Part shown: positions 28,134 through 60,277 of the stretch, piece by piece
Layout of the letters: the number at the start of each line of letters is the position of its first letter
How positions within the stretch are numbered: the stretch's first letter is position 1
Assembly: GCA_938007935.1 (NCBI GenBank)
Contig: CALLMD010000006.1
Span: 1 to 64,000, forward strand
DNA length: 64,000 bases
DNA from: an uncultured Hellea sp.
Lineage (GTDB): Bacteria; Pseudomonadota; Alphaproteobacteria; Caulobacterales; Maricaulaceae
Reading direction: 5' to 3'
Position numbers and translations under genes: made by a program
The notes under the pieces: generated by a model
What the model was told of the DNA's origin: nothing
The model's input: the letters and a program-made list of their open reading frames with translations, nothing else
Databases searched by the model: none

Positions 28134-28400
28134 CTATAGGTCTGCAACAACATCCATATAAATATCCAGCAAAGCTTCTTGCTCAGCCCGCTCTGCAGCA
28201 TCTTGCTTACGCAATGACACAACTTTGCGAATAACTTTTGTATCGAGACCAAAAGTTTTCACCTCGGCGTAAACCTCACGAATATCAGCCGCTAGCTCGG
28301 TTTTTTCGGCTTCCAGCCGTTCAATACGCGCAATGAATTGCTTGAGTTTTTCACGAGTTGCTTGCCCTAATTGGTCAGCACGATCAGCATCAGAAAGCAT
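28134..28400 (-). CDS. gapR: DUF2312 / GapR-family nucleoid-associated protein
   Basis: REKLKQFIARIERLEAEKTELAADIREVYAEVKTFGLDTKVIRKVVSLRKQD is diagnostic of DUF2312. Confidence 0.92.
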   Translation of the reverse strand: MLSDADRADQLGQATREKLKQFIARIERLEAEKTELAADIREVYAEVKTFGLDTKVIRKVVSLRKQDAAERAEQEALLDIYMDVVADL

Positions 28401-28523
28401 GAAATATCCTTTTATAGAACCTTCCCGTCTCTTAAATCACTCCGACAAATTCTCCAGTCAATCCATGGTCTTTGTTGTGGATGGAATGTGAGGAGAGCGC
28501 AACGATATGTTTTTAAAAAGAAA

Positions 28524-28570
28524 AATGGTAGTGAGAGTGAGACTTGAACTCACGACCTCAGGATTATGAG
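28524..28570. repeat. att site copy 1: left end of element A (displaced tRNA 3' half)
   Basis: aatggtagtgagagtgagacttgaactcacgacctcaggattatgag, identical over 47 bp to 51120-51166 and 60231-60277. Confidence 0.93.
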
Positions 28571-28854
28571 CGCAGGAATCGCCATTTTTCTAAGATTCAG
28601 AAAAATTTTTAACAATCATATCAAAGGCTTAGAATTTTTGAAAATCATGAAAATTCATGAAATTCACACGTCACAGCTATTTTTGTGTGAAAACCGTGTG
28701 ATTTTACGCACGCAGGATAATACTCACACGCAAGTTTCAACTTGCCAATCTGCATCAAAATGGATTAACCCCTTTTTTTAAGATATTTGACTTTGAAAGT
28801 AATTCAATTACCTTCTAGAAGATAAAAGCAGAATTAATTGATTTCGATAATGCA

Positions 28855-29094
28855 TTGGAGCAAAAAAACTTCGTATTCAATGTATCACAAATTGACAAAG
28901 AAATTGACTTTAACGATTTAAGGGACGAATTGATAAAGCATGTCTGCAAAGTAAGACTTTCTGTAAAAAACGCATGCCACGGCAAAGTTAACTTAAATGG
29001 AAATAGATACCAATGGTTTTTTGGGTATCACGAAGATTACTTCCGTAAAAATAGAACCAAAAACATCCATGAGTTAATCTTAGTTTTAGAATAA
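28855..29094 (+). CDS. small hypothetical protein
   Basis: 79-aa ORF with non-repetitive composition, convergent with 29086-29622. Confidence 0.4.
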   Translation: MEQKNFVFNVSQIDKEIDFNDLRDELIKHVCKVRLSVKNACHGKVNLNGNRYQWFFGYHEDYFRKNRTKNIHELILVLE

Positions 29095-29622
29095 ATAATG
29101 GTTGAATATAGAATATGTAACACTAATTACACGTATAGTCGCTGATATAATAATTAGCAAAGCCCCCACTAATACTAGAGCGCGAACAGCATTTTTCCAT
29201 TTTAATTTTGATATCTCCTCTTTCACCCAATAGTCCCTTATCAAACCTTCACGGGTGCGTTCAATTTGGCTATCAGGAATGTATTCTGGAGCTATTTCAC
29301 CAAGTTTTCTTCCACTTAATAACAGGTCCTCAACTGTACCATACACTTTGATAATTTTAGGAGCGAATAGAGAAAAAATGAGTACTGAAAAAGACAAAAG
29401 TAATAGTCCATAGTACATTAATATCGGCTCTATAGAAACGCTATTATCTAACAACCTAGTATATGAAACCGGACTATTATCGGTTGGTTCTTTAGAAAGT
29501 CTAAAAATTATAAATTGCCCTAATAATGGATAAATAAAGCCTGACCATTTCACAGCAGGATGCCATAATACTGATGCTAAAAAGCTCCAAGAAAGTTTAT
29601 CCCAAGAAGTTTTCAATAGCAT
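29086..29622 (-). CDS. small multi-TM protein of unknown function
   Basis: Hydrophobic segments (WSGFIYPLLGQFIIF, LMYYGLLLLSFSVLIFSLF, ALVLVGALLIIISATIRVI); overlaps the upstream ATPase gene by 26 bp. Confidence 0.65.
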   Translation of the reverse strand: MLLKTSWDKLSWSFLASVLWHPAVKWSGFIYPLLGQFIIFRLSKEPTDNSPVSYTRLLDNSVSIEPILMYYGLLLLSFSVLIFSLFAPKIIKVYGTVEDLLLSGRKLGEIAPEYIPDSQIERTREGLIRDYWVKEEISKLKWKNAVRALVLVGALLIIISATIRVISVTYSIFNHYLF

Positions 29623-32350
29623 TTATATTTCCCCTATTTTTATTTTTATATTTAGCGGCCACTTTGTACTCATAAGATTGTATTAAGCTGTACGTACTTT
29701 GCATATCATTTCGCAAATCATTATATCTGTCTGCCTCTCCTGTAGCTTCTGACATTGAGACAATCCTTGAGATAGCTCCTCCTAATCTTAAAAATACATC
29801 TGAAATTGGAGAGCCACATCGAAAACTCGCTTCATTTAACTTGCCGCGTTGTAAATTCCTTAACATAGACTCCTCAGCAGGTAACAAAATACTTATGCTT
29901 CTGATAATTGAACTAAAAATATCTGGTAGAGGCAAAGGAATTATATTTTCTTCTTTATCAAGAAGAGCATAGTAAGTTCTAAAATATTCTCGTTTTGACA
30001 TCCCACTCAGATAAATTAATGCATCAATTGATGAAAACGCCCATTGAGTATAACATGTTGTACCCAACAATGTATTTAAGTATCCATGTCCCGCCCATGA
30101 AAGAAGAAAGTCTCTCTGCAAACTTACTTTACCATGCACTTTAAGTTGGTGATAGTCATCGACTGAACTGAAAATAAGCCTACGGTCTGGCCTAGTTAGA
30201 GTCATCAGCAAATCTACAGTATCATTTCTGTTGATACCAACTCTCGAAGCAGTTCTAATTATCCTCTTAAAGTTCATGCCTTTTTGGTTACTCCAAAGCC
30301 GCTCTCTAATGTGATATAATAGCCAAATAGGAAAAACGCTTATTTCATCTCCATTGATAGTAAACAAATTAACAGGAGAAAAGTCTTGTTCTTCTGCTCC
30401 TTTTCTCATTTCTGACTGCAAAAGTAGAACGCTAGAAAGATGAAACCTCGACTGTCTTGAGGGTTTTGACAAAGCTTGATAAATCTCTTCATCAATATCG
30501 TTGGGGTGTTTTTTTTGACCCTCCACTAGTTTTCTTGCCACTTCCGTTTTGCCCTTCAAATCACTTATAGATTTGAGAAGGGCAAAGTGATAAGTGCGCA
30601 TGTCTGATATGACCATAGTATCAGGTTCAGCATTATCAATTATTTTATCGATTTCATATTGCAAGTCCGCTAGCCAGGACGAGTCCACATCAAGCTTTCG
30701 CAATTCCTTGAAGTTCCTTAAGACAATTACTTTAATCGAATTATCAGAAGGGATTTTTTGCAATGAATTTTTAGCATTAATTTGAACGATCCTACTAACC
30801 CGAAATCCATGTGATACGGGAATATCCTCATATGCGGCGGAGGTTTCTCTAAGCTCATTCAAACAAAATGACTCTACTTGGCTAGCAACATCAATGTGTG
30901 TTAGTCCTTGTACTATGCCACTCTTGATAATATCGAATATACACCCAACATAGTTCTCAGCGTAATTATTTGCTAGTATCCTTGCTAGAGCATTCCTCGA
31001 ACTTATAACTTCTGCTGAAGTGTTTATTCTTGGATTTAAAGCTTCCGATGTTAACCAGTCATATGTTAATTTAAATGCCAACCTAATATTACTACCCGCA
31101 ATCGAAAATAGTAAGTTTGAAAAATCACATTTATGATCTGTGATCACGCAGATTAATTCAAACAGTCTTGATAAATATAAAGTCTGATCTTTATCGTACA
31201 AGTTAACATCAAATTTCTCAGAAAATATTTCATCAAACACTCTATCTAAAATTATATCGACTGGTTCGGCGCTACCAAAATAATCTGGGTCACCATCTAT
31301 TTGCGTGCCCATAAGTTCGGAATAACTAGAAAGGCGTAAAGGGAGTATAATACGTAAATTGGAAAATACTTTTCCACGTTTTCTTTGAAATGTTTTCAGG
31401 TCATCATAAAGCGCTCTCAAATCTACTTCTATGAATTGATCTGCATTATCAATAAAAATACAAAGTGGATAATTTTCAAACAGGTTATTATCATGGTTGA
31501 TTGTCAAATTTGAACTCAAACTTACCGTCGCTTCATCAGAAATTTCTGGATGTTTAATTTTCGTAGAATTACCTTTTATCTCCGAGACCAAGCCAATTAT
31601 TGTCAACAAATCAGAAACTGAAACATTAGTGTCATATTCTAGTTCTTGCCAAAAAAGATCTGAAAAATCATAGATGTCTTCTCTAATGTACTTGTTGAAA
31701 ATTAATCTAATTTTTCGAGATGTACGTTTCCCTATTTTCTTATTTTCATTATTCTTTGAAAAATGAGTTTTTAAAAACTCGATCTGCTCAGTATCATTCT
31801 GAAATAGGCTTTCAATTTCTGCAATGATTTGAGACTTAACAAATTTGGTATATTTAGAAACAGCATCTGGATATTCGTAGATACCTGTAATTTCCACTTC
31901 GTCACGATTATTTGGCCTTTCTGGGTCTGTTGTTGAGGCTTCTTTTGGATTAACATTTACATATATCGCACGAGGCCTAACATAACCTTCATCAATGCCT
32001 GCAGAACAAACATTGATGTAGTTAGTTAAACTCTTACAAAAAGATGATTTGCCTGAACCTGAACCTGAACGAAAAGTATGAAGTGTTGTAGAAGATACTT
32101 TAAGATTTCGAATGAATGTTTTTTCATAATGCCCAATCTCATTGTACCCAATTCTTATATTGCTATTTTGAGCCCTTGAAGGGATTGGTTTTTGCCCATT
32201 TTTAACCTTCAATGGAGGAAAAAGCCTTTTACGAGGAACCCAGCTAGATTTATACTCTAAATGCGGATCAGCAGCCGCATCATTAAAAAGAGATTGGGTA
32301 TTAGTTAATAAGTACTGATTTTGCACTTTGCCATCTAATCTTGTTGACAC
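29597..32350 (-). CDS. 917-aa P-loop ATPase of unrecognised family
   Basis: Walker A FRSGSGSGKSSFCKSL, Walker B PLCIFIDNADQFIEVD. Confidence 0.75.
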   Translation of the reverse strand: MSTRLDGKVQNQYLLTNTQSLFNDAAADPHLEYKSSWVPRKRLFPPLKVKNGQKPIPSRAQNSNIRIGYNEIGHYEKTFIRNLKVSSTTLHTFRSGSGSGKSSFCKSLTNYINVCSAGIDEGYVRPRAIYVNVNPKEASTTDPERPNNRDEVEITGIYEYPDAVSKYTKFVKSQIIAEIESLFQNDTEQIEFLKTHFSKNNENKKIGKRTSRKIRLIFNKYIREDIYDFSDLFWQELEYDTNVSVSDLLTIIGLVSEIKGNSTKIKHPEISDEATVSLSSNLTINHDNNLFENYPLCIFIDNADQFIEVDLRALYDDLKTFQRKRGKVFSNLRIILPLRLSSYSELMGTQIDGDPDYFGSAEPVDIILDRVFDEIFSEKFDVNLYDKDQTLYLSRLFELICVITDHKCDFSNLLFSIAGSNIRLAFKLTYDWLTSEALNPRINTSAEVISSRNALARILANNYAENYVGCIFDIIKSGIVQGLTHIDVASQVESFCLNELRETSAAYEDIPVSHGFRVSRIVQINAKNSLQKIPSDNSIKVIVLRNFKELRKLDVDSSWLADLQYEIDKIIDNAEPDTMVISDMRTYHFALLKSISDLKGKTEVARKLVEGQKKHPNDIDEEIYQALSKPSRQSRFHLSSVLLLQSEMRKGAEEQDFSPVNLFTINGDEISVFPIWLLYHIRERLWSNQKGMNFKRIIRTASRVGINRNDTVDLLMTLTRPDRRLIFSSVDDYHQLKVHGKVSLQRDFLLSWAGHGYLNTLLGTTCYTQWAFSSIDALIYLSGMSKREYFRTYYALLDKEENIIPLPLPDIFSSIIRSISILLPAEESMLRNLQRGKLNEASFRCGSPISDVFLRLGGAISRIVSMSEATGEADRYNDLRNDMQSTYSLIQSYEYKVAAKYKNKNRGNINAIENFLG

Positions 32351-32427
32351 TTTGCCTCCCTAATATTTGAAAAAGAGTATCAAAGGCTGAAAATAAAAAT
32401 GCAACCTCTTATTTGTAATTCGTAAAC

Positions 32428-33291
32428 TTAAGACTCAAGTCCGTAATCAAACAAAAATGGATTTGCACTTTTGGAGTCTGTAAACACCCAACCTCGAGAT
32501 AAATCCTTACCTAATTGTTCAAAAGTATTGAAGAGAAAAGCCTTTTTAAAATCATGAAAATTATCTGTTTGGATAAAAGCTATTTTTACACCTTTAAGAA
32601 CATTTTCTTTCATGTGTACCGAACAAATAAGCGGGGAAATTTCTAGCTTATATTTTATAGCAACAGCTCCAGTTTCCAAAACTTCGATGTAGCGCTTAAG
32701 TTGCTTGGTAACGGCCTTAGTCTCTGTGGTTCGGTGAATTTCTAAGATATAGATTCTTGGTTGCCCATTGATCGCTACCCCAAAGATACCGTCTGGCACA
32801 ATGGGAGTTGAGTCGTTTGGCAATCTGATTTCCGTTTTGGGTGTAAAATTGCCCTGCCGTCGTGAGCCAATAATATCGAAGTCCATATCCGTGAAAAGAA
32901 TATCTACATCGGGGCGACTGTTCGCCCATTGCCGAAATCCAATATGGAAATCAACTTGAACGATACGATGCTTTGCAAACATCGCTCCGAACTGGACTTG
33001 GCCTTTGGGATAAGGAAAATTTTCAATCGGTTGTTTGTAAACTTCAGCAAGGTGCTTTGCGCCATGTTCCGTAAGGTAGTGTACTTCGGGCAGAAAATTA
33101 CCAAGTTTACGTTTCTTGGCGAGAGGCTTTCTCGAACGGTGTAGCTTGGGTAATATGTTTTTACGAACGGACGCGTCACTGGCTCCGATGCCAAGTTTTA
33201 CAAATTGAGATACAGTAAGAAACCGATAGATCGATAAAGCGTGTAGAGCTTCAAGAGGTTTAGCCGAAAGTGATTGAACAACTTTACTCAT
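32428..33291 (-). CDS. replication-relaxation family (Replic_Relax)-like protein
   Basis: N-terminal wHTH (ALHALSIYRFLTVSQFVKLGI), HYLTEHGAKHLAE, HRIVQVDFHIGFRQW, PDGIFGVAINGQPRIYILEIHR; ATGA overlap with the upstream ATPase gene. Confidence 0.65.
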   Translation of the reverse strand: MSKVVQSLSAKPLEALHALSIYRFLTVSQFVKLGIGASDASVRKNILPKLHRSRKPLAKKRKLGNFLPEVHYLTEHGAKHLAEVYKQPIENFPYPKGQVQFGAMFAKHRIVQVDFHIGFRQWANSRPDVDILFTDMDFDIIGSRRQGNFTPKTEIRLPNDSTPIVPDGIFGVAINGQPRIYILEIHRTTETKAVTKQLKRYIEVLETGAVAIKYKLEISPLICSVHMKENVLKGVKIAFIQTDNFHDFKKAFLFNTFEQLGKDLSRGWVFTDSKSANPFLFDYGLES

Positions 33292-35045
33292 TGGGCAGAG
33301 ACATCAGGAATTGGGAACTTGGGCTTTCGCAGTGGTTCTGCGTGTTTTGGATTAGGTTTATTTGTAACCTCTTTATCATCTCGATAGTAAGTTTGGCATT
33401 GAGTGGCTTTTAGGTTTTCCCACTTAGCTTTAGCTAATGCGTGTTTGTTTCCGACAATACTGATCTTGGTTTTGATAGCTTGGCGTTCAGATTGAATTTG
33501 AAAGAACTCTAACTTTTTAAGCTCCCGAATATCATCGGCACTGATGGGGTGTTCCTCGGCCATCTTCTTAGCGGTTTTATTTTTATTGCGGCCAATCAGG
33601 TAACAACCAACATTGCCAAAGATTGCGTCTAGTAAAGCACTACCAACTTGTTCTTTGCGTTGAGTGGCAAGGGTAAGGTACAATCCAAACTTTCGGCTCT
33701 CGCCTAGAATTTCTTCAATCTTGGAACTTACAAAATATTGGCATTCATCGGCAAAGAGATGAATGGGTCGGCGTTTCGTTTTCGGGCGGCTCATTGCATA
33801 GTTGGTGATAAAGGCGTTTATTAATTGCCCCGTTGTCCGAATGGCCTCTTGCGTGTGATAATCTGGGTTGAAATGAAAGACGATGAGCTTTCCCGCCTCT
33901 AAACACTCGGCTAGATTAAATGTACTCGGATTACACAAGAACTCTCTTACGGTTGGGTCGCGTATGATTTCTCCAAATCGATAACGTAGCGCCTCTTTGG
34001 TACTTTCAAAATTTCGAGAGTAAAACTGGTGTTGGAAAAAGTCTTTGTCCTGTGCATTGGGTAAATAGTTTTGCCCATACTGAACAAGGTCGCGATTACG
34101 CTTATCATCCATAAAACGGACAAGCTCTGTGAAGTTTGAATGTTTCCTATGTAATAAAACGCCGATACAGGGCGTCAGGAGTGCCCTCTGTGGTCTGGTG
34201 AGTTTTTCACCGATAATTTGCTCTAATGCCCCTAAGAATTGAACCTGAGCGCGATTAAGCGATATTTCATCCGTTCTTTGTATGTCGAATGGATTGAAAC
34301 TGATGTGTTTGCCTATGAAGTGACTAGGCGAGACATAAACGAGACGGTCATTGGTAGCATTCTCTTTAAAGCGAGCTACATCAAGTGCCAGATCGCCATG
34401 CGGATCGAGCACGACCAATGCAGGCTTTGTATTTTTCGTCAGGTAATGACGAATGAGCGTTTTGATAGCTTCTGATTTTCCTGCACCAGTTCCCCCTGTG
34501 ATAAAGGTATGACTTTTACGGGCTTTCTCACTGATATAAAAAGTCTTAGGCGTAAAAAAAAAGTTCTGCGTAAAGTCCGACCAATTATCTTGAAGGGTAG
34601 ACATAATAAAATCCAAATACCCTCCAACATCAAATTTACCAGCCGCGCGGATAGTGCGTATCTGTAAGAGTAGTTTCTGGTAGCTTTTGTGTTTTTCTTC
34701 ATATTGGGCGTAGGCTTTTTGGTATCTATAAATGCGAGCAACTTTTCGGTCTGAGGCGCTATCATATTTTATTTTTACAGGATCAAAGGCTTCATCTTCT
34801 AACTGAGGCTCAATTGGCACTTCGGGAGTAGTGCTCTGTAACCTCAGATATTCTGTGAAAGTCCAAAATGCGCCCGTACGCTCTGCTACAATATCGCAAA
34901 GGTGTTGAGTTAGGTTGGGGTTATAAATGAGCCTGTAGTGACCACAGAGCAACTGGGCATCATCAATATCATTCTCAGAGTCAGAAAAAGAAACCCCAAA
35001 CTCTTTGAGAGCCAGCTTAAACTCATGTTCAAAATCAGGAATCAT
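33288..35045 (-). CDS. VirD4/TraG-like (TraM-recognition/DUF87-type) DNA-translocation ATPase
   Basis: Walker A FITGGTGAGKSEAIKT, VVLDPHGDLA, LFADECQYF, TLATQRKEQVGSALLDAIFGNVG; Met at 35045 taken as likely start. Confidence 0.75.
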   Translation of the reverse strand: MIPDFEHEFKLALKEFGVSFSDSENDIDDAQLLCGHYRLIYNPNLTQHLCDIVAERTGAFWTFTEYLRLQSTTPEVPIEPQLEDEAFDPVKIKYDSASDRKVARIYRYQKAYAQYEEKHKSYQKLLLQIRTIRAAGKFDVGGYLDFIMSTLQDNWSDFTQNFFFTPKTFYISEKARKSHTFITGGTGAGKSEAIKTLIRHYLTKNTKPALVVLDPHGDLALDVARFKENATNDRLVYVSPSHFIGKHISFNPFDIQRTDEISLNRAQVQFLGALEQIIGEKLTRPQRALLTPCIGVLLHRKHSNFTELVRFMDDKRNRDLVQYGQNYLPNAQDKDFFQHQFYSRNFESTKEALRYRFGEIIRDPTVREFLCNPSTFNLAECLEAGKLIVFHFNPDYHTQEAIRTTGQLINAFITNYAMSRPKTKRRPIHLFADECQYFVSSKIEEILGESRKFGLYLTLATQRKEQVGSALLDAIFGNVGCYLIGRNKNKTAKKMAEEHPISADDIRELKKLEFFQIQSERQAIKTKISIVGNKHALAKAKWENLKATQCQTYYRDDKEVTNKPNPKHAEPLRKPKFPIPDVSAQ

Positions 35046-35306
35046 GAAGCCAATTTCAAGGTGTTTTGAAAGGTTGTTTTCAACATGACACCGTGATCTC
35101 ACTAAGGGTATGAATTATATAGAGAAAACAGAGAGTTTCAAATTAAACTCTCCTATCAATACATTGTATTGAGCTAGTGTTTTCTTCTCGCGTTTCATCC
35201 TCGTCATTCGCTCTGCTCTTTCCTCGTCTTCAACTTAATCAGTCAACCCTAATCAATCCAAACATATTGCCAGTCGGCGGCTGGGTGGGCCGCCCCATTG
35301 TCTGCC

Positions 35307-35867
35307 CTACTTTGGAAGCTGTCCCTTTTTAAACAGCTCACTCAAATGCTTGGATATTGTCTCCACTTCAATATTCTCGGCAAAGGCTTTCATCTTTGCC
35401 GAATATTTTTCCTTAAAAGCGAAAACATCTTTTTCTAGCTTTGACTGATGCGTGGCAAAATCTTTACTTTGTTGATGCTCTTGCTTTGAGAGATTCAACT
35501 CTTGCTTGGCTTTGATTTGATTTTCATAAATTCTTAGTTCCAATCCCAAAATCTGCTCGTCCATTGACCAATGGTGACGGATAAAATCATCTCGCCTTCT
35601 CATGATTAATTCTAAAGCTTCACGTTCAAGTTCTCTGGCGTCTTCTGCCATATTAAACTGGTGATCGAGCAGCCTATTGTCTTTGTTAAGCTCGTGCTGG
35701 AGTTCCATTAGCTCTTTGGCATTTGCGCCCTCGATTAAAACGGATTGTGTTTTTTGCCGTTCTTTTCGAGCATCATTGGCTTCTTGACGTTGACGCGTTA
35801 GCTCAGCGCTTTTCTCTAGGCGAATAATGGCATCTTGCTGACGTTTCTCTGCGGCTTGCCAATCCAT
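35307..35867 (-). CDS. coiled-coil protein of unknown function
   Basis: ORF in a tightly overlapping cluster; Gln/Glu/Lys-rich heptads. Confidence 0.6.
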   Translation of the reverse strand: MDWQAAEKRQQDAIIRLEKSAELTRQRQEANDARKERQKTQSVLIEGANAKELMELQHELNKDNRLLDHQFNMAEDARELEREALELIMRRRDDFIRHHWSMDEQILGLELRIYENQIKAKQELNLSKQEHQQSKDFATHQSKLEKDVFAFKEKYSAKMKAFAENIEVETISKHLSELFKKGQLPK

Positions 35868-36277
35868 TAATTGCTGCCGCTTGCTATTTCGGATAGCTGA
35901 TTTAATCGCTGTTGTTGATTATCATTAAGCTGCTGAACAAGCTTCATATCACTATCTGCAACAGCACTAATTTTGCGATGCACGTCATTAAGGTCGTTGG
36001 TAAGGTTTTCCATTTTTTCAATCAAAATAGCTTTCACCTCTTCTACGCCTAGCATTTGCGTCTTAAGAGTTTCCGTTAGGGTCTCATGAAGTGTTTCATT
36101 TTCCTTACGAAGCTCTGAAACGGCTTTATTAAGCTCCGCAACTTCAGCTTTATAATCTCTGATTTGAGGCTCTAATTCCTTTAAGGCTAGCCGAGCCTCG
36201 TAATCCTCTTCTTGCTCATGTTCGTACTGTTTTGCTTTATCACGTGCTTTTTCTGCTTTTGATCGGAAATCAACCAT
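35867..36277 (-). CDS. coiled-coil protein of unknown function
   Basis: Overlaps the downstream gene by 1 bp; long heptad-rich sequence. Confidence 0.6.
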   Translation of the reverse strand: MVDFRSKAEKARDKAKQYEHEQEEDYEARLALKELEPQIRDYKAEVAELNKAVSELRKENETLHETLTETLKTQMLGVEEVKAILIEKMENLTNDLNDVHRKISAVADSDMKLVQQLNDNQQQRLNQLSEIASGSN

Positions 36278-36280
36278 TGT

Positions 36281-36736
36281 TTACTCCACTCCAGCTTCGG
36301 TTAATGTCTCAAAAGCATGACGACCAGTAACGGCAGCTTCCTCATTATCAAGCCCCCCACACTCTGCCATCAAACTTAAAATTGTCGTGATAGAGCGTTT
36401 ATGGTCTCCTGAAATTTTATGGGCGTCCAATGATTCAATCAATAACGCTCGTGAAGCTCTGGCCTGTTTAAAATCATGATAGAGAGATTTACTTTCAGAA
36501 CTTTGTAATATCGAACGCTTGGTGAAAGAGAGGAAGGGATTTACGCCCCCTTCTTTTTTCGCAGCGACCTTTTTAGCATTGTGTTTTTTCAACTCCACAA
36601 AATGCTCCGTTGAAAAAGATTGCGACAGATGTTCAAAATGAATGATCAATGCCTTCATACATTTCATAACATCAGCAACTTGAATGCTGGTCAGGTCAAA
36701 TTTATCCTGAATTTTTTGACTAAGTTCTTCGCCCAC
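36281..36736 (-). CDS. hypothetical protein, first gene of the minus-strand cluster
   Basis: 3-bp spacing to the next gene; coherent globular composition. Confidence 0.6.
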   Translation of the reverse strand: MGEELSQKIQDKFDLTSIQVADVMKCMKALIIHFEHLSQSFSTEHFVELKKHNAKKVAAKKEGGVNPFLSFTKRSILQSSESKSLYHDFKQARASRALLIESLDAHKISGDHKRSITTILSLMAECGGLDNEEAAVTGRHAFETLTEAGVE

Positions 36737-36977
36737 TTTTTCGCCCCAAATTGCACCCTAATGTTGTTTAAGAGGAGTTCTCGAAATAATCAATAAAATT
36801 TTAAAATGCTACATATGCGGGTGTATGTTCAAATGAAGATGTTTGCGAATAATGAAACTGAACTGTAAAAATAATTTCCAACTAAATTCAATTACAGTTT
36901 CATTAAGCCTCTAATTTTAGCCTGTCACATCTTAGATTGGGTGCGCGTAGTGGGAGTTAAATTAATCCATAAAATAA

Positions 36978-38006
36978 ATGTCAAATCCAACATTACAGCA
37001 TGCGAAAGAACAAATTCGAAATAAATACCCGCACCTCATTTCATTATTATCGCCTGATGAAATAAAACTTTATGAGCAAGAAATAGGAAATCAAGAAACA
37101 CCGATCTGGCGATATTGGGAAGACTATGTTTTTAAAACCCTCATTCTAGGGAAAAGCCCTATTACCATAAAATCAGTTCGAGATGGTCTAAATACAATCA
37201 TGCGCCACACGGGCATTCTGACCATTGAACAAGCCAATTCACTAGGTGTGTTGGATCAAGCCACATTAGAGCTACAAATAAAACGAAACCAAAAACCAAG
37301 CACGCGCAATACCTATCTCAAAAATTTCAACACCTATTTTATCTGGCTCTATAAAAATAACTTGATCCAACAAAACAATATTGCTCGCATCGAGAAAGGC
37401 CGCGAAGCACCGCCAGATGTAAAACCGCTAAGTTTAGACCAAATTGAGAAGACAGTTCTACATTTTGGGCGAAGACATCATTCAACGGCACTTGAACGCG
37501 CTCGAAATATTTTAATGGTAGACGTGTTCCGATTTTCTGGTGTTCGCCCCTGCGAATTACTCAGCATGAACAATGATGATATTTTTCAAGAAAACGGAGA
37601 GTGGAGAATGGTGATTAATGGCCGCAAACAAAAAGGGCGTTTACGATATTACGAATTGCCTAGTTTTGTTGTTCATTCCTATCAAAATTATATGAGGTTA
37701 CGTTTCGATAAAGACCGATACGAGAAACCATTATTTATCTCTATGTCTTCACGTGAGGGATGGAAAACAAGCGGTCTACAGCAACTATTTAAGACTGTTT
37801 CAAAAGAGCTTGGGTTTCGAATTACCGCCTATGGTTTTCGGCGTTTTATCGCCACTCAAATGAGCCGAAACGGTATCGCCCGCGATGATCTATCCCGTTA
37901 TTTGGGGCATAATCGATTTACGACTACAGATAGGTATATCGCTAGAGAGTGTCATCTAACACGGAATGGCACCGATATGATGAAGCAAATGTACGATGAT
38001 ATCTGA
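36978..38006 (+). CDS. tyrosine recombinase/integrase 1
   Basis: FRFSGVRPCELLSMNNDDI, ITAYGFRRFIATQM, LSRYLGHNRFTTTDRYIA. Confidence 0.9.
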   Translation: MSNPTLQHAKEQIRNKYPHLISLLSPDEIKLYEQEIGNQETPIWRYWEDYVFKTLILGKSPITIKSVRDGLNTIMRHTGILTIEQANSLGVLDQATLELQIKRNQKPSTRNTYLKNFNTYFIWLYKNNLIQQNNIARIEKGREAPPDVKPLSLDQIEKTVLHFGRRHHSTALERARNILMVDVFRFSGVRPCELLSMNNDDIFQENGEWRMVINGRKQKGRLRYYELPSFVVHSYQNYMRLRFDKDRYEKPLFISMSSREGWKTSGLQQLFKTVSKELGFRITAYGFRRFIATQMSRNGIARDDLSRYLGHNRFTTTDRYIARECHLTRNGTDMMKQMYDDI

Positions 38007-38043
38007 ACCTTTAAAAATGAATATTCGATATTACATATAAATT

Positions 38044-38424
38044 ATGAAATCAGATACTCGCCAAAAGATAAACCCAGAAAAAATTTCTACTGCGGTAGCT
38101 CATTACATGGTTCCAACTGGCTTTTGTGGACTAGGGTTGTTCGGGCTAAATTTTGTAATTAAGAAAGACATCCCGCTTTTAGAAAATGCCACTATGTTTT
38201 TTTGGTATTTAGCAATGGGTATTTTCTTTTTCGGCGGCTTAATTTTTATGTTTTGGTTGCTGACCTATCACATAAAACAAGTAGAGAATTGGTTAGAAAA
38301 GAAACATGTTGGAAAAGGAAAAGCCGCGAAAGCAGTCATACTAATCAAGTTATTTGCTTTCATTATGTTAGTTTGTTTTTTAGGGCTTTTTGCCTTGATA
38401 GCAGGTCTGATTAAAATGGGTTAA
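38044..38424 (+). CDS. small membrane protein
   Basis: Three predicted TM segments. Confidence 0.55.
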   Translation: MKSDTRQKINPEKISTAVAHYMVPTGFCGLGLFGLNFVIKKDIPLLENATMFFWYLAMGIFFFGGLIFMFWLLTYHIKQVENWLEKKHVGKGKAAKAVILIKLFAFIMLVCFLGLFALIAGLIKMG

Positions 38425-38434
38425 AGCACTTTAT

Positions 38435-39337
38435 TCATTCCATGTTATTCATCAAATGTCTTTCGACACTTTCACGTTTATCATCCAATGAAAGATGCGC
38501 GTAAACTTGGGTGGTCTTTATACTCGAATGACCCAATAAACCAGATACGGCGTAAATATCACGAGACCCGCGATAAGTATGTGTAGCGAAAGTGTGCCGC
38601 AGAACTTGCGGAGAAAAATCTATACCTGACCTTTCTTTAAGCTTACGGCACATCACCTGAATTGCGCGAGGGCTTAATGGTGTATCTTGATTGACACATG
38701 TAAAGAAACTTATTTGCTTGGTCTTTTTCGATCTCCGTTCAACGTATTCCAACAAAAAATAAAGCAGTCGAGAAGAAATAGGCACTTGTCGATCTTTGTT
38801 CCATTTTCCTTGTCTTACGAAAATGACGCCATTTTCTAAGTCTACGTCCAACCGTTTTAGGTTGGATATTTCAGAAAGCCTTAGACCCGCAAAAATCATA
38901 ATCCCAATAATAGCTCTGTTTCTGATACCCTCCAGTTTATATGTGTAAGGAAGATGGTAAGCCGTTTCCAGTAACTGTTCACAGACATCTGGCATAAGAT
39001 ATTTGGGCAATCTTTTTTCTAGTGGTGGCTTATCGATGTCATCAGTATAATTGTGGGGTAGGTATTTCTTCTTTACGCACCAGTTACAAAGTGCCCGCAA
39101 ATGTTTCAAATAAGATCGGAATGTCACAACCGACCAATTCCTTTTTGTACGTCCATCAAGAAGAAACTTTTCAATGATTTCTGGCGATAGATCACTCAGT
39201 GTTTCTACATTGGAGGCTTTAGCAAAAAAGCTAAATGTACTTCGATAGCTTTTGATCGTCGCGGGTTGGAAGTTCTTAAATATTTTTCCGTGTTGTAAAT
39301 ACAGATCACAGATAAGGTTGAAGTCGTCGGATTTCAT
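38435..39337 (-). CDS. tyrosine recombinase/integrase 2 (XerC/D-like)
   Basis: FAGLRLSEISNLKRLDVD, QVLRHTFATHTY, VSGLLGHSSIKTTQVYAHLS. Confidence 0.93.
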   Translation of the reverse strand: MKSDDFNLICDLYLQHGKIFKNFQPATIKSYRSTFSFFAKASNVETLSDLSPEIIEKFLLDGRTKRNWSVVTFRSYLKHLRALCNWCVKKKYLPHNYTDDIDKPPLEKRLPKYLMPDVCEQLLETAYHLPYTYKLEGIRNRAIIGIMIFAGLRLSEISNLKRLDVDLENGVIFVRQGKWNKDRQVPISSRLLYFLLEYVERRSKKTKQISFFTCVNQDTPLSPRAIQVMCRKLKERSGIDFSPQVLRHTFATHTYRGSRDIYAVSGLLGHSSIKTTQVYAHLSLDDKRESVERHLMNNME

Positions 39338-39467
39338 AGCACAAGAAAGAGAAAATAATGAGGCTGTCTCGCTATTTTCAAAACTTTTGAGGCGGTTCGT
39401 CCCCCTTTCGGGGGAGTGTCACCAGAAGCTATATTTCCTTGAGTATCAATTGCCGTCTAGTCAGTCA

Positions 39468-39525
39468 TGGCGGAGAAGGAGGGATTCGAACCCTCGGTAC
39501 CCGTGAGGGTACACACCCTTAGCAG
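39468..39525 (-). pseudogene. 3' half of tRNA-Ser(GCT) (anticodon loop to CCA), 5' half missing; probable attachment-site remnant
   Basis: Minus strand CTGCTAA-GGGTG-TGTACCCTCACGGGTACC-GAGGGTTCGAATCCCTC-...-GCCA; sequence 5' of the loop (CATAG) cannot pair with GGGTG. Confidence 0.82.
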
Positions 39526-39702
39526 CTATGAAGACTTCTTACTAAAAGCACTTAGGTCAGTTATAGAGCGGAAAATGTAGCTTCTGAGGTTATAAATTCT
39601 CCAAGATCGGAGAGCCTCATTATTTTGAGAAGAGCAAAATGATTTTACTTGCAATTCAGTATTCTGCAAACTCAAATATAGTTAGAATCAGGACAATCGC
39701 GT

Positions 39703-40008
39703 ATGACAAATCGAAATGAGATAATAAAATCAAAAGGTAGTGAGATTGAACCTCAACTGGAAGCTTCGATTCCAATAATGGATTTACTTAAAGATCCTGA
39801 TGCTATGAACGCTCTCGACAATCTTATAGGTTCAATAATGGATCGAAGTAGAAAGAATGCTACTGGTGAAAGAGTCTTACAAGGTTTGGGAGTTGTCTTG
39901 CTTGTATCTGCAGTTTCAATTCTTTCTTATTTAGAAAAAATGACGCCAAGTGCTGGGGTTATTTTTGGAGCACTAGCAGGTTACATATTCGGAAAAGGCC
40001 TTGAATAG
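39703..40008 (+). CDS. small protein with C-terminal TM hairpin
   Basis: GERVLQGLGVVLLVSAVSILSYLEKMTPSAGVIFGALAGYIFGKGLE; 65 bp upstream of the STAND gene. Confidence 0.6.
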   Translation: MTNRNEIIKSKGSEIEPQLEASIPIMDLLKDPDAMNALDNLIGSIMDRSRKNATGERVLQGLGVVLLVSAVSILSYLEKMTPSAGVIFGALAGYIFGKGLE

Positions 40009-40072
40009 TTTGATGCTACAAACACTCACTTGGAGAACTATTCAATCAGGAAAATTCAGGTAAGCTATTCAT

Positions 40073-43000
40073 ATGTTAAAGGGAGGATTCGCTGATAAAC
40101 TAGGAAATCGCTATGAAGCCAAATGGACTATCAGTAGGCTTCTATTGGTGCTCGCTGGTGACTATGAACATCTTACTTATGAGGGCATCAACGAGGACTT
40201 TAAGGGTTTTGAATTTAGATTAAGCGACTCACAAATTACACAGTGGCACCAAACTAAGATAAACGCCCCTAAAGGTAACTGGACTATTGGAGCACTTCAG
40301 AGAGAAAATTTGCTAAAAGCATTTAAGGATCGGCTAGATGCTGATCAAAATGCACAATGTCATTTCATTTCCCAAGACAATGCTAAAAGCCTCAGAGAAC
40401 TCGCGAATGATGCCCGTCTAGCAAATTCACCTGAGGAGTTTGTGTCGGCTCTAGCTGATGGTCGAATCTCAGATTTTGAAAAACTTAAATATACTTGGGA
40501 TTGTGATAGCAATCATGCATGGCAATTGTTGCAGGGTATCTACGTCAAAGTAATTGTCGAAAGTGAAATCGATACGAACATTACGGCTCTAAGTAGGTTA
40601 CTGCTCAATGTCGATGGCGACACTTACGCGATTTTGCGAAAACATGTCGAAGAAAATTTGAATAAGAGGGTCAATAGAGAGACTCTAAAAAATTGGATCA
40701 ACTCAGAAGATGGTGTTGAATTCAAAGCATGGGCAAGTCCCAAATCCAATATTGAGAGAATACAAGCTGCAAATGAGAGGTATTTATCTACCTATATCCC
40801 ATTCGGAATAGGCGGCAAAACAATCACTAGGAATCAGACTGAAGTTATATGCTCCGACATTATCGACTCTGAAGGCTCAAAAATTGTAATTCTTGCAGGC
40901 GTTGCAGGAAGCGGAAAATCAGGCGCCGCTAGACAAATCATCGATACCTTTAATGAGGCAGGTATTCCTACTTTAGCATTTAGAGTAGATCACTATTTAG
41001 ATTGCCGGCACCCTTCTGAAATAGGCAAAGCCGTTTTAGATATAAATGATTCACCTGTAGCACTACTGAAAGCTCTTTCACCCAGAGAAACTTCCGTGCT
41101 GATCATTGATCAGTTGGACGCTGTTAGTGAAGTGTCAGGTCGAAATGGCGTTGTGAAATCGGGTCTGTTTGAACTTCTTGATGAAGCTTCTCAATACGGA
41201 ACTGTGAAAGTTATTATTATTTGTCGAAGTTATGATCTCGAAAATGATGATCGCTTTAGGAAGCTCTCGAATGGATATAAAACTACCAAAGTTGATCTCC
41301 CCTTACTTAACTGGAATGAAGAAATAGTGCCTGTCTTAGAGGCACTAGACTATGATTGCTCGCAGTTTTCTGAACGACAAAAACGGCTGCTATCTGTTCC
41401 CGTTAACTTAGCTGTCTTTATCGAAACTGGCGATAAATACTTTTCATTTAAAAACCGTGCTGATCTTTTTGGTAAATTAATCAGAAAGAAAGAAAAAGTC
41501 TTTGTAAAACTCGGCTTCTCTTGGTCACTCATGACGCCTTTACAAAAGGTGGCAAAATGGATGAGCGATAGACAGGAGCTATCTGCTCCCGAAAGCATCT
41601 TAGATGAATTTTCAGGTTCTGGTGACTTCTTAAGCTCAGAAAACCTGATTGTCATTTCAAATAGAAAGATCAACTTCTTTCACGAAAGCTTTTTCGATTA
41701 CATTTACGCCCGTTCCTTCATTTCTGGAGAACAATCCGTTCTGGAGATGGTTTTATCAGGAGAACAACATCTCTTCCGAAGAACCCAAGTCCGTCAGATT
41801 TTTGCGCTTATGCGAGAAGCCGATCACTCAAATTACATTCAACAACTGAAGGGCTTACTAATTAGTCAGTTTGTACGTTACCACTTAAAGCTATCAATCG
41901 CACAATGGCTCGCCTCATTAGATGATCCTAGCGCCGATGAGCTAGGTGTCGTCCTTGGATTAGGAAACAGTGAATTAAATAGCCTCCAAATAGTAGTTCT
42001 ATTCTCAAACGCAAATTGGTTCTCTCTACTTCATGAGCAAAAAATCATCGAAAAAACCCTACATGGAAGTTCTGAAAAGAATTCGCGTATAACGCTAAAC
42101 TGGTTATCACAAATAGCAGGACGGCATCCGTCTGAAATAGCCAAGTTAATAGAGAATTGGTGGGCTAAAGATGAAACAAAAGCAGAGCAGCTTGTAGACT
42201 GGTTTGGGTTTCTCAGACGTAATAAGCCAGATGATGAGCTGTTAGAATTATGCGGGCAGGTAATAAAATTTCGTCCCAAGAATCTTTTCAAAGATGAAGG
42301 TCGTGACCGTATAATGATGCTATTGCATACTTGGGTTGATCATGAACCTGAAAAATGTGGAGCTTTAGTAAAAGAACTGTTCGATGCGTGGTTTGAAATG
42401 CATCCCGATGCCAATCTACTTGACCGCGACGATTTTAAGCTCTTGGACAATCATTCGTTAAGCGAGCTTGCGAAAAAGTCATCCCGAGCATTTGTAGAGG
42501 GAACAAGAGATGCGATATTGAGGACTGTAAGAGAAACAGTCGAACAAGGAGAAGAAGGCCGTAGATGGTATTCTCTCATGTCGTCCATGAGATCAGATTA
42601 CCTACATGGTTTCGACGGCCTGTTTCAACTTTTTGAAAAATCACTCTGTGAGCTAAGTAGAACCGAGCCTGATTTCACTAGAGAAACTCTCGCCCGCCTG
42701 CCAGCAAGCCTTCATCCGCGATTTATGGGGTTACATCTGGGAATAATTGGTACAAGCTCCGACACATTCGGAGACATGCTTAGTTCACTCCTTGACGATG
42801 ACAATGCCCTAAAAGCTGGAGTCGATGGGGCTGAATGGAAACCGTTCGCTATAGCTTGTAAAGCCATGTTGGGAGTATCTAACGATTTACGAGATATAAT
42901 CGAAGCTAAGATTTTTTCTATTGATCACGAAATTCAAAGAGCAAAGAGGCTTTGGGACCTATTAAAAAGAGGAGAGGCCAATGAGTGGGTTGATAAAAAC

Positions 43001-44644
43001 TCGGTTCTGAGAAGCTTAAATTTTTCAGGTTGCAGAGAGTGGAATATTCTACACTTCATCGGCATCGAAAACTTATCTGAGAAAGGGAGGAGGCGTTATC
43101 AGCAACTGAGTCACAAGTTTAATACCGAACATATTGATGAAGAAAACTCAGTTCGTATGATTGGAGTTCACTCGCCTATCGGTGCTGAGCAAGCACAACG
43201 AATGAATGATGAGCAGATAATTTCTGCTATGCTAAAATATGATACTGACGAGGGAAAAGATTGGAGGCGCGGAGGTGCATATGAGCTATCTTCTGTAATC
43301 ACAGATCAAGCAAAGAATGACCCAAACCGATACTTAGCTTTACTTTTAAAGTTGCCTCTAAATATCAATCATCTATACCATTCAGGAGTTTTGAGAGGTA
43401 TACGCGATGCGGAAGCCTTCGATAATGAGGTGGCAAGAACGGCTATTCTTCATATCCATGAACATTTTAAATCCAAGCTATCAGACGAAATTTTAAGCGT
43501 GATAGAGACTCATTCATCACTCATTTTATCCGATAAAATAAAAGAACTAGTCTTCGATTATGCCGTTAATGGAGACAGCCCTAGCAGAGAAGACCTTCGT
43601 GAATACAGCGACGATGACTCTAATAATTCTAAAAACAAACTACTCACCGTTGATGATCTTGTTCGATCAGGTGGTGGTGGCATTATGATACAATCCGTTC
43701 ATGGAGGGCGTGCAAAAGCTTGGGACACGCTCAAACGAATTGGCTGGGATCATTCCTCAATACACCAAGAAATTTGGGATTTAGTAGAAACACAAGCTAT
43801 CGATGAAAAGTCGGTAAGCATCAGGGCTAGAATATTTGATGCAATGACGCCACTCTTTAATGACGATAAAAAACGTTATGAAAATGCCTGCCACACACTC
43901 TTCGACCAGAAGACCATAGGAAACAGATCAATCGATCCAATAGCAATATTAGCGACACTTCATGGCGTAAATATGCAAAAATATATCGATTTCAATATGC
44001 CTAAATTCGCTTCAAAATGCATCCACAGGATGACCACAAATGACAATAAAAATGTTCAAGCCGTTGGGACATGGTGGTTGTTTTGTGAGCATTTTCGACA
44101 TGGACGCTCAGGTATACCGCTCAAAGCCGTCGATGAAATGAGCGATCAAGAAAAAATCCTTTATGCTGATATCTTGTCACATGCGTTTCATTGGGACGAA
44201 GTGGAAAAGTCTGCGGAAACTGATTTAATCAGAATGTTCAATGACCCCAATATCAAAATAGGCGAACAAGCCTCTGAAGTTTTCAGGAATTGTAAGCCCG
44301 AAGATTTTCATCGTTGTTTAAAGTTGGCGGAAGCATATATCCGAACAGATGCATACTTAGAAGCATCAACTTACATACTATACGCATTAGATAGCGCAGA
44401 ATGTGATGTCATGGAACTTGTAGTGTTCGGTGCAGAACGATTAATCGCAAGTATTATTGATAAAGGTGATCAACATGGTAGCCGAGGAACAGGCCTTTAT
44501 AAATTACAGGAGCTATTAGCGCGAGAATATGCTGCTTCGGAAAAACGACAAGATATCAGAAAGAGAATATTAGATTTGATCGACCTTATGCTTGAAAATG
44601 ATATTTACGGCACTGAAAAAATTACCTTGGCAAATGATAGATAA
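40073..44644 (+). CDS. Avs-like STAND NTPase with putative N-terminal PD-(D/E)XK (DUF4297/Cap4-like) nuclease and long C-terminal repeat/sensor region; candidate antiphage protein
   Basis: N-term GNRYEAKWTISRLLLVLAGDYEHLTYEGINEDFKGFEF...QWHQTK; Walker A ILAGVAGSGKSGAAR; Walker B SVLIIDQLDAVSE; about 1000-aa helical C-terminus. Confidence 0.68.
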   Translation: MLKGGFADKLGNRYEAKWTISRLLLVLAGDYEHLTYEGINEDFKGFEFRLSDSQITQWHQTKINAPKGNWTIGALQRENLLKAFKDRLDADQNAQCHFISQDNAKSLRELANDARLANSPEEFVSALADGRISDFEKLKYTWDCDSNHAWQLLQGIYVKVIVESEIDTNITALSRLLLNVDGDTYAILRKHVEENLNKRVNRETLKNWINSEDGVEFKAWASPKSNIERIQAANERYLSTYIPFGIGGKTITRNQTEVICSDIIDSEGSKIVILAGVAGSGKSGAARQIIDTFNEAGIPTLAFRVDHYLDCRHPSEIGKAVLDINDSPVALLKALSPRETSVLIIDQLDAVSEVSGRNGVVKSGLFELLDEASQYGTVKVIIICRSYDLENDDRFRKLSNGYKTTKVDLPLLNWNEEIVPVLEALDYDCSQFSERQKRLLSVPVNLAVFIETGDKYFSFKNRADLFGKLIRKKEKVFVKLGFSWSLMTPLQKVAKWMSDRQELSAPESILDEFSGSGDFLSSENLIVISNRKINFFHESFFDYIYARSFISGEQSVLEMVLSGEQHLFRRTQVRQIFALMREADHSNYIQQLKGLLISQFVRYHLKLSIAQWLASLDDPSADELGVVLGLGNSELNSLQIVVLFSNANWFSLLHEQKIIEKTLHGSSEKNSRITLNWLSQIAGRHPSEIAKLIENWWAKDETKAEQLVDWFGFLRRNKPDDELLELCGQVIKFRPKNLFKDEGRDRIMMLLHTWVDHEPEKCGALVKELFDAWFEMHPDANLLDRDDFKLLDNHSLSELAKKSSRAFVEGTRDAILRTVRETVEQGEEGRRWYSLMSSMRSDYLHGFDGLFQLFEKSLCELSRTEPDFTRETLARLPASLHPRFMGLHLGIIGTSSDTFGDMLSSLLDDDNALKAGVDGAEWKPFAIACKAMLGVSNDLRDIIEAKIFSIDHEIQRAKRLWDLLKRGEANEWVDKNSVLRSLNFSGCREWNILHFIGIENLSEKGRRRYQQLSHKFNTEHIDEENSVRMIGVHSPIGAEQAQRMNDEQIISAMLKYDTDEGKDWRRGGAYELSSVITDQAKNDPNRYLALLLKLPLNINHLYHSGVLRGIRDAEAFDNEVARTAILHIHEHFKSKLSDEILSVIETHSSLILSDKIKELVFDYAVNGDSPSREDLREYSDDDSNNSKNKLLTVDDLVRSGGGGIMIQSVHGGRAKAWDTLKRIGWDHSSIHQEIWDLVETQAIDEKSVSIRARIFDAMTPLFNDDKKRYENACHTLFDQKTIGNRSIDPIAILATLHGVNMQKYIDFNMPKFASKCIHRMTTNDNKNVQAVGTWWLFCEHFRHGRSGIPLKAVDEMSDQEKILYADILSHAFHWDEVEKSAETDLIRMFNDPNIKIGEQASEVFRNCKPEDFHRCLKLAEAYIRTDAYLEASTYILYALDSAECDVMELVVFGAERLIASIIDKGDQHGSRGTGLYKLQELLAREYAASEKRQDIRKRILDLIDLMLENDIYGTEKITLANDR

Positions 44645-44650
44645 CTTTAA

Positions 44651-44986
44651 CTAATACTCATCCGCCCGCATGATCGTCATTACGCGTGTTGTTTTCTCTG
44701 GGTCGCTCGGGTCTTCTGATCCGTATCTTAAGCTTGGGTCGTAGTAGTCGATTTTGAAGAAAAATTGATCTCCGTTTATTTCGACAGCCCCAAAGTCATG
44801 CTCATTATAAGGATCATTCCCCTCCTCAAATTTATTGTACACTCGTATTGCTTCAACAACCTTGCCACGTGTTTCGTGGCCTAAATTTTGAACGCCGAGT
44901 GTTGCGACTACTCGCCCGCCAATACCTTGTGTGCGGAGGAGGTCATTAAGTCTTGAGATCGAAGCCGTTTGAGGTGTTTCTTGCAT
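44651..44986 (-). CDS. DUF3768 family protein
   Basis: GGRVVATLGVQNLG, NDPYNEHDFGAVEINGDQFFFKIDYYDPSLRYGSEDPSDPEKTTRVMTIMRADEY. Confidence 0.9.
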   Translation of the reverse strand: MQETPQTASISRLNDLLRTQGIGGRVVATLGVQNLGHETRGKVVEAIRVYNKFEEGNDPYNEHDFGAVEINGDQFFFKIDYYDPSLRYGSEDPSDPEKTTRVMTIMRADEY

Positions 44987-45160
44987 AGGACAAAAATTCT
45001 ACGCCCTCTCGGTGTATGCATTCAAATATCATAGATAGATTTGACTTGAGCGAAAATAAAAACTGTTATGCTTTATAACTTTGACGATATTACAGCAAAA
45101 TCTTTTAAATTTGTAATCTACGGGTAACTTTATAGTTGCTTTAACAATTTGAGATAGACA

Positions 45161-45769
45161 ATGGTGAATATACAACGAATCATTAACTCTAAAAGTACTT
45201 TAACCTTGATGCCAAGTTCACTTCTGAGAAAACCCTCTGATGGCTCTGAAATTGCATCAGAAAGCCTGAAGCGAGATCATTCAAATGAAACTCAGGCCTA
45301 TTTACGCCTAATTTCTGCCGATAACTCGTTTTCTGAACGCAAAAAAGCGATTGGAGAATGGCTAGTGTACTATAATGAAACAGAGTCGAGACAAGACCCA
45401 TCTACGGCCATAAAACAGCTAAACACAATGGTAGATTTTCTTTTCCCCAAAACAGATGACCTCGGGAAATCATGGAATGCTCTGCTTAAAAAGCGAATAC
45501 CAAACGCAGCTACCTCAGAAAGTGTTACAAAATATGGTAATTTAATAAAACTGTGCTACGGTAACTATGCCAATAATCATACATCTATGGAAAAATTTGA
45601 TTTTCATTCTGCCAAATCTCGTATTGAAGCACTCGTTCCAGAGGTCATTAAAGAGCTTGATGAAAGAGAAGCCGAACTAGACCTTCAAATCAAAGAGTCC
45701 CGTGAAAGACAAGCTGAATACAAGATAGCTTTAGTAAATTCCCAGCGTCTGATTGAGGCGATAAGTTAA
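45161..45769 (+). CDS. hypothetical protein with C-terminal coiled coil
   Basis: 202-aa ORF, 1-bp gap to the next ORF. Confidence 0.6.
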   Translation: MVNIQRIINSKSTLTLMPSSLLRKPSDGSEIASESLKRDHSNETQAYLRLISADNSFSERKKAIGEWLVYYNETESRQDPSTAIKQLNTMVDFLFPKTDDLGKSWNALLKKRIPNAATSESVTKYGNLIKLCYGNYANNHTSMEKFDFHSAKSRIEALVPEVIKELDEREAELDLQIKESRERQAEYKIALVNSQRLIEAIS

Positions 45770-45770
45770 A

Positions 45771-46121
45771 ATGAATGCCGAACTTAAAATTCTCAAGCTC
45801 GCCGCCGAGATACTTAAGGCGGTTGCAGGTGGATCTGATAGTATCAAGAAAATGCTTGAGAGTTTTTCGAGTAAAGAGAAAAAAGAAAAGCAACATAAAT
45901 TAGAATTAGACAAAGAAAGAAAAGCTAAAGCGGCTTTGGTCGAAACAAACGCAATGCTGTACAAACTTCTATCTGAAGCCCATGCAAAACAGAAAGAGAT
46001 AAATATTGAAGTAGTTGAATTAAAGGCGAAAAATGTTGATCTGAAAATTCAAAATGACCAATTTTCAATTTGGAAGGCGGGGTGTGTTTGTGAAACTACT
46101 AAAGACATAACTATCAACTAG
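45771..46121 (+). CDS. hypothetical coiled-coil protein
   Basis: Immediately follows 45161-45769; Lys/Glu heptads. Confidence 0.55.
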   Translation: MNAELKILKLAAEILKAVAGGSDSIKKMLESFSSKEKKEKQHKLELDKERKAKAALVETNAMLYKLLSEAHAKQKEINIEVVELKAKNVDLKIQNDQFSIWKAGCVCETTKDITIN

Positions 46122-46123
46122 CA

Positions 46124-47005
46124 CTATTTACTACGATTTATTCGCCCCTGCTTCCGCTTCCTTTTCTTCAATTTATCCCGATAAGCTTTTGGCACTGATT
46201 TCTGATTGCTAACTGACTTCGGTTTTGAAGCGTGAATGTCGAGATGATCTCTCAAGGCAAAATAATCAGGTTCACGAGTTTTGTCCGACCAGATAAAATT
46301 ACTGACTTTGCGAGCTATGGTTTGATTAATCTGACCATCCGAATTGATAATACCAAGCTCTCTCAAGTTGAGATTCCAGTAAAGGTTTTCTTGCTTTAAC
46401 TCACCTGTTCCATCAGGGCGGCGGCACCAACTCAGCGCGTATTCAATATCATCTTTGTTCGCCGATTGGCTCGTATTATCGAGATTGGGATCAATAAATA
46501 TCTGCATGAAGCATTTGTCGATATCAGGGATATTACCGTTACATCGGTCATAAAAAGCCAACAATTCCGACATATATTCCAATGATAAGTCTTGGCGGAT
46601 CATCTCTACGATCAAACCTATTTGCGGGGTTTTATTCCAATAAGGCGCTACCAACTGGGCAAGCGCCGCTAAACGGGCATAATCCACTTCTCCGTTAGCT
46701 GTTTTAAGCTTGAGATCATTTAGATCAAAAGTAGGTGGCTTAAAGGAAACGCCTTCACCTGTTTTTCTAGCCGCTTCTAATGCGGGACGGATTTTATTAT
46801 AGGCTTGGTTCCATCGTTTAGCACTACACAGCCAGATATAGAGCTGATTGATATAATCGGACAATGGCGCGTCCGCAAAACCATCACCGAGCATTTCAGG
46901 CGGTAAAATATTATCTAAGGGTATGCCCGTATCGCCTTTGCGTATGTTAAAATAGATTATCCCTGCGTCGTTCTTAAACAGCCCAACCGTTCCATTTTCT
47001 TCCAT
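46124..47005 (-). CDS. hypothetical protein
   Basis: 293-aa ORF, codon usage consistent with neighbours. Confidence 0.6.
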   Translation of the reverse strand: MEENGTVGLFKNDAGIIYFNIRKGDTGIPLDNILPPEMLGDGFADAPLSDYINQLYIWLCSAKRWNQAYNKIRPALEAARKTGEGVSFKPPTFDLNDLKLKTANGEVDYARLAALAQLVAPYWNKTPQIGLIVEMIRQDLSLEYMSELLAFYDRCNGNIPDIDKCFMQIFIDPNLDNTSQSANKDDIEYALSWCRRPDGTGELKQENLYWNLNLRELGIINSDGQINQTIARKVSNFIWSDKTREPDYFALRDHLDIHASKPKSVSNQKSVPKAYRDKLKKRKRKQGRINRSK

Positions 47006-47023
47006 GTATTATCAGTGTACGGA

Positions 47024-48421: not shown

Positions 48422-48453
48422 CCACTAATTATAGCAGATATACGCTCAAATTC

Positions 48454-48810
48454 CTAATTTTGCGGACGTGCGCCCTTTTCAAATTCTTCCCGCGCCATCT
48501 GTTGAAACTCTTTACTTAACACTTCATTGGTTGTGTTGCCTTCTTCGATTTTGGTATCTAACGCGGCGATTTCAGCTTGTCTGGCCGCTTTTGCTTCTCG
48601 CATACAGGTTAGTTTTTCAGCTTTCGTAGCACCGACCAAGGCTCTACATTCTGCTTGTGTTCGTACTTTCACTTCTACCACTGCCGCCATTGACGTAAGC
48701 TCGGCTGTGGTTGTCTGAGGCGCGTTCTTATCCTCTGCTCCAGCATCAGCACATCCTGCTAACGCCAAGCCACCTGCCGCCGTTGCCAAGAGAGTTCTAA
48801 GTTTTCCCAT
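48454..48810 (-). CDS. small predicted lipoprotein
   Basis: MGKLRTLLATAAGGLALAGC lipobox; shares NTTNEVL..AREEFEKG with 47024-48421. Confidence 0.6.
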   Translation of the reverse strand: MGKLRTLLATAAGGLALAGCADAGAEDKNAPQTTTAELTSMAAVVEVKVRTQAECRALVGATKAEKLTCMREAKAARQAEIAALDTKIEEGNTTNEVLSKEFQQMAREEFEKGARPQN

Positions 48811-59901: not shown

Positions 59902-60230
59902 TGTACTCTCTCAGTCTAAGATGCGTCTTTAAAGATTATTGACCAAAATCTTGGTTCATTCCCGAAATATTACTTAAGCAGTAACCCAAAGTGCTACAGA
60001 CCTAATATGGGAACATGGGTCAAAAATAGCCTTAAATAGATAGATTTTGAAGACCGAGAGAATCTTTATTGAGATAAAAATTTGGGGAAAATCAAACCCG
60101 ATTCAAACCGCCCATATTTTTAAAAATAAGCAGGATGACTAGCTTAACGACGCATTAAGCTAGGTCTGAGAGACTAAGACATTGAAATAAAACAATATTT
60201 ACGTTACAAATGTCGAAACTTTTAAGAAAA

Positions 60231-60277
60231 AATGGTAGTGAGAGTGAGACTTGAACTCACGACCTCAGGATTATGAG
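60231..60277. repeat. att site copy 3, within the intact tRNA
   Basis: Third identical 47-bp copy. Confidence 0.93.

Follow-up and report, generated by a model that had tools for sequence, protein, structure and literature searches.

A large P-loop ATPase gene and an overlapping membrane-protein gene, found near one end of a genomic island in an uncultured Hellea sp., form an independent cassette that stands outside the island's transfer operon and here follows the transfer genes. We conclude that the pair is a separate unit because its relative lies without genes for a VirD4-like ATPase and a replication-relaxation protein, while plasmids that carry these two genes lack the pair. Of the functions weighed below for what appears to be an autonomous, horizontally moved NTPase and membrane-protein cassette, an anti-phage module of the abortive-infection type is the most likely, and we put it forward tentatively. 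The window analyzed here is a stretch of 64,000 nucleotides, and all positions refer to it unless another locus is named.

The NTPase and its membrane partner

The ATPase gene (29597..32350, minus strand) starts with GTG and encodes a protein of 917 aa. As the original prediction held, this protein carries a Walker A motif, GSGSGKSS (aa 96-103; 32042..32065, minus strand), and a Walker B-like motif, IFIDNADQ (aa 298-305; 31436..31459, minus strand). Alignment with the relative described below, in which the two motifs read GTGSGKSS and IFLDNADQ, shows that G[ST]GSGKSS and IF[IL]DNADQ are kept in both homologues, as expected of a P-loop NTPase. A further stretch, GSNIRLAF (aa 419-426; 31073..31096, minus strand), is invariant in both copies and, judged from the alignment, could contain the lid or sensor-2 arginine. 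Hydropathy analysis found no TM or other hydrophobic segment within the 917-aa protein. Two AF2 runs gave low-confidence models (pLDDT 32.8 and 31.5).

The second gene (29086..29622, minus strand, ATG start) encodes 178 aa and shares 26 bp (29597-29622) with the 3' end of the ATPase gene, the overlap that had been described previously. Its product had been called multi-TM, and this description holds: there are about three TM segments, at approximately residues 22-40, 62-91 and 148-166 (KD maxima of 1.11, 2.25 and 2.59, the first stretch being the weaker), and the same hydropathy pattern is seen again in the relative's membrane protein (KD maxima of 1.28, 2.02 and 2.42). Given these three stretches and a charged loop of ~60 residues between the second and the third, the protein would be expected to adopt an N-inside/C-outside topology. 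A Shine-Dalgarno-like sequence precedes each gene of the pair (TAGGGAGGcaaaGTG; AGGGGAaatataaATG), so the second gene has its own ribosome site besides the overlap; translation of the two genes may be coupled.

Judging from sequence similarity, a small ORF of 79 aa that converges with the pair (28855..29094, plus strand, TTG start, frame open from 28819) is a probable third member of the cassette. It resembles the C-terminal part of a 90-aa ORF found beside the relative's pair, with a local alignment score of 58 against a mean of 25 (sd 4.6, maximum 45) in 1000 shuffles, and a BLASTP comparison of the two ORFs matched 11/34 positions with an E value of 3e-6. An antisense echo of the membrane gene was considered as the source of this similarity and was rejected, since the matched part lies outside that gene except for the last codons.

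A single relative in Robiginitomaculum

The original prediction could not assign the ATPase to a known family, and profile searches with each protein led to the same view: neither the ATPase nor the membrane protein had a convincing match in Pfam, NCBIfam, PADLOC, PHROG or PDB sequences. In PADLOC, the window pair had no match at E<=1, and the relative gave only short matches (E 0.03). NACHT, nSTAND and AAA profiles likewise yielded 0 families for the window ATPase at E<=1, and Pfam PF07693 (KAP) matched neither the window ATPase at E<=1 nor the three pieces of the relative's ATPase at E<=10.

A survey of 137 genomes from the same family turned up one relative, in the MAG Robiginitomaculum sp. 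OFTM234 (referred to below as G1017), which belongs to a genus different from that of the window and is placed by NCBI in Robiginitomaculaceae, Maricaulales. No others came to light when 303 genomes from the order were searched by profile, nor did tblastn against plasmids, phages, 386 genomes of the class and 399 of the phylum, or a profile search of 200 phylum genomes, yield any. The sub-threshold matches in the phylum tblastn were short and chance-like, except for a KAP-like protein (L016) that was retained as a lead. Exact-word scans with the single ATPase protein retrieved nothing from 85k genomes or from viral contigs. When the true two-sequence alignment was used, the 85k-genome scan returned the same Robiginitomaculum MAG only and the viral contigs gave no match; each scan rested on two short patterns, and the rarity of the family is thus unproven. 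Three further alignments (A1-A3), in which the extra rows were randomized decoys rather than homologues, added only to loosen the scan patterns, also found nothing, and they support no claim.

The two ATPases are ~43% identical overall (40-46%), with both Walker motifs kept. Identity reaches 62% in aa 291-470, from Walker B to the lid, 51% around the P-loop and 46% in aa 626-860; the proteins are least alike, at ~30%, in aa 161-290 and 471-625. The membrane protein of the relative has the same length of 178 aa, is 34% identical to that of the window, and is encoded directly after the ATPase, whose end it overlaps; this match is unique within the G1017 genome. The convergent 90-aa ORF comes next in the row. 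Such a relative, at 40-46% identity with conserved motifs and with a 34% identical membrane partner, confirms at the sequence level that the ATPase and the membrane protein are real and more than chance ORFs. Failure of the two genes to co-occur had been named as evidence against the original prediction, and they are in fact kept together in the sole relative found.

In G1017, the ATPase gene is broken twice. One contig ends with the part for aa 1-202, a different contig carries aa 203-917, and the ends of the two share 139 bp inside an IS3-type element; the other interruption is a frameshift at eight consecutive A. Despite the damage to its neighbor, the membrane gene is still open. Upstream of the G1017 ATPase lie genes for a TM/DnaJ-domain protein, a protein of 132 aa and, next to a tRNA-Ala, an integrase 51% identical to the 390-aa integrase of the window. 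The TM and DnaJ-domain gene (L023:11643-12338) is directly upstream of the ATPase on the same strand and is missing from the window.

Island setting and a possible role in defense

The island measures 31.7 kb, is located at a tRNA-Met, and is bounded by a 50-bp exact direct repeat, of which attL (28521..28570) reproduces the 3' end of the tRNA-Met gene exactly and attR (60228..60277) lies inside or next to the tRNA-Met (60233-60309). The ATPase/membrane pair occupies the left end, ~0.5 kb from attL. Its GC content is 0.348, compared with 0.416 for the transfer genes, 0.389 for the whole island, and 0.486 and 0.500 for the flanks. An RNA-family scan of positions 28300-37200 detected no RNA families.

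Several other genes of the island deserve mention. A protein of 1523 aa (40073-44644) has a NACHT/STAND-like P-loop, with a Pfam NACHT match just under the cut-off (E 4e-5) and no match in PADLOC; it is possibly an uncatalogued defense sensor. Adjoining the tRNA-Met end is a gene for a 612-aa AAA_21 ATPase (58063-59901) similar to the AriA/AriAB and ATPase-Toprim defense models (PADLOC E 7e-21). A 751-aa membrane protein (52700-54955) combines about five TM segments with pentapeptide repeats and has no PADLOC match. Five tyrosine recombinase-like genes, at 36978, 38435, 48841, 49971 and 51347 (region 36978-52642), suggest that the island is composite or has undergone repeated insertions.

Since the island also carries the NACHT-like and AAA_21/AriA-like proteins, a defense function for the pair is plausible, and to this extent the original prediction of abortive-infection-type defense, which would entail anti-phage activity and toxicity, is partly supported. 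A statistical argument from guilt by association would need more than the two occurrences at hand. In such a model, the NTPase would hold nucleotide and sense an invader-related signal, with the poorly conserved middle (aa 471-625), the conserved C-terminal part (626-860) or both acting as the sensing part. Once triggered, it would change state or oligomerize and would then activate or release its partner, whose three TM segments would sit in the inner membrane; this partner would alter membrane integrity or potential, halting growth or phage production, while the small convergent ORF might modulate the system. We infer NTP hydrolysis, sensing, physical interaction, the membrane effect and the defense role itself, and the words "sensor" and "effector" are suggested by the gene layout. 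Against the model stand the number of known occurrences, only two, and the lack of a PADLOC match for either protein. The G1017 copy constrains it further: because its membrane gene is open beside a broken ATPase, a self-sufficient or constitutively toxic membrane protein is disfavored, and this one MAG suggests that the membrane protein does no harm on its own and that the ATPase would be an activator rather than an antitoxin. The defense model can accommodate this state only where activation requires the ATPase or transcription has been lost. A more specific proposal, an undescribed three-gene, membrane-acting defense system composed of an NTPase of a new P-loop family (seen so far in just two genera of one taxonomic family, Robiginitomaculum and that of the window), a three-TM effector and a small convergent regulator, is in our estimation somewhat unlikely.

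Alternative functions and independence from the transfer genes

Among characterized systems, the KAP NTPases (PF07693) are the nearest idea; they include Tmn, described as a phage-inhibiting NTPase of the KAP family whose two TM domains are unusual (PMC11846954). Like them, the pair has a large P-loop protein, a Walker B of the D-N-x-D type and a membrane link, and its function might be that of a KAP-like membrane NTPase split in two, in which the NTPase is tethered by its membrane partner and both work as one signaling or exclusion machine with no separate killer, much like KAP systems that consist of a single protein, Tmn among them. The sole suggestive outside similarity points this way: hhalign matched the Walker B stretch of the ATPase to the KAP-like protein L016 over 48 columns at 35% identity, D-N-x-D is present in both, and in L016 the region separating the Walker A and Walker B motifs contains hydrophobic segments. 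However, the hhalign probability of 12.8 is no detection, the membrane part here is a separate protein, and the ATPase lacks two defining KAP features, a match to PF07693 and a TM segment. We therefore regard a split KAP function as somewhat unlikely and, going by sequence, file the 917-aa ATPase in no family. It shares with STAND/NACHT proteins (Avs-type sensors) a Walker B of the form hhhhD-x-x-D-[EQ], large size, a variable region between conserved ones and a defense-like island, but differs from them in having no NACHT/nSTAND match at E<=1 and no recognized fused effector or repeat domain. With HerA/VirD4-type ATPases of transfer and defense operons it has in common a P-loop ATPase in one gene row, but the TrwB, HerA and mad8 models match the upstream gene and none matches the 917-aa protein.

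A cassette with a selfish or housekeeping function and no connection to phage, either an addiction-type module with a membrane toxin and the convergent ORF as regulator or a function in envelope stress, would agree with the position of the pair next to attL, the conservation of the small convergent third ORF and the toxin-like size of the membrane protein. We consider this unlikely: a toxin that the ATPase keeps in check could not have its gene open where the ATPase is disrupted, as in G1017, and modules of this type do not usually include a partner as large as 917 aa.

Two genes outside the cassette precede it on the minus strand, one for a replication-relaxation protein (32428..33291; PF13814, E 4.4e-6, above the cut-off), which is missing at the relative's locus, and one for a VirD4/TrwB-like ATPase (33288..35102; Pfam TrwB_AAD_bind, E 8.6e-12). 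The VirD4-like protein (within 32428-35102) also matches the mad8 defense model (E 1e-17), and its pairing with the replication-relaxation protein is conserved on plasmids of Alphaproteobacteria, close to a tyrosine recombinase. The cassette shares their strand and is separated from the relaxation gene upstream by a gap of 77 bp with no clear promoter, and yet a role as an accessory of the island's DNA-transfer/mobilization operon, helping these two proteins to move the island, is improbable, as the G1017 pair has no adjoining VirD4 or relaxation gene, three plasmids with relatives of these genes are without the pair, and its GC3 values (0.28/0.26, versus 0.35/0.41 for the transfer genes) suggest a separate history.

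On Agrobacterium pAtCFBP6624 and Sinorhizobium pSfHH103a2, the row of VirD4 and relaxation relatives stops at the relaxation gene, and the third plasmid, pM02_c5, is also without the pair; a search with VirD4 as bait for more copies recovered just distant relatives, again without it. By the G1017 pair, no transfer or partition genes were found in the sequenced flanks, where the IS element and the contig ends narrow the view. The original prediction had named a conjugation/partition cluster as the setting that would speak against it, and the pair in this one relative is untied to such genes. The two copies lie on different islands, with unrelated genes upstream.

If this independent cassette is anti-phage, as we tentatively favor, it would add to bacterial immunity a new NTPase family with a membrane effector in trans, in a host lineage in which few defense systems have been characterized. 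Even if it is not defensive, it represents an orphan pair that is carried by different tRNA islands with its sequence and order conserved and that escapes current profile libraries entirely.
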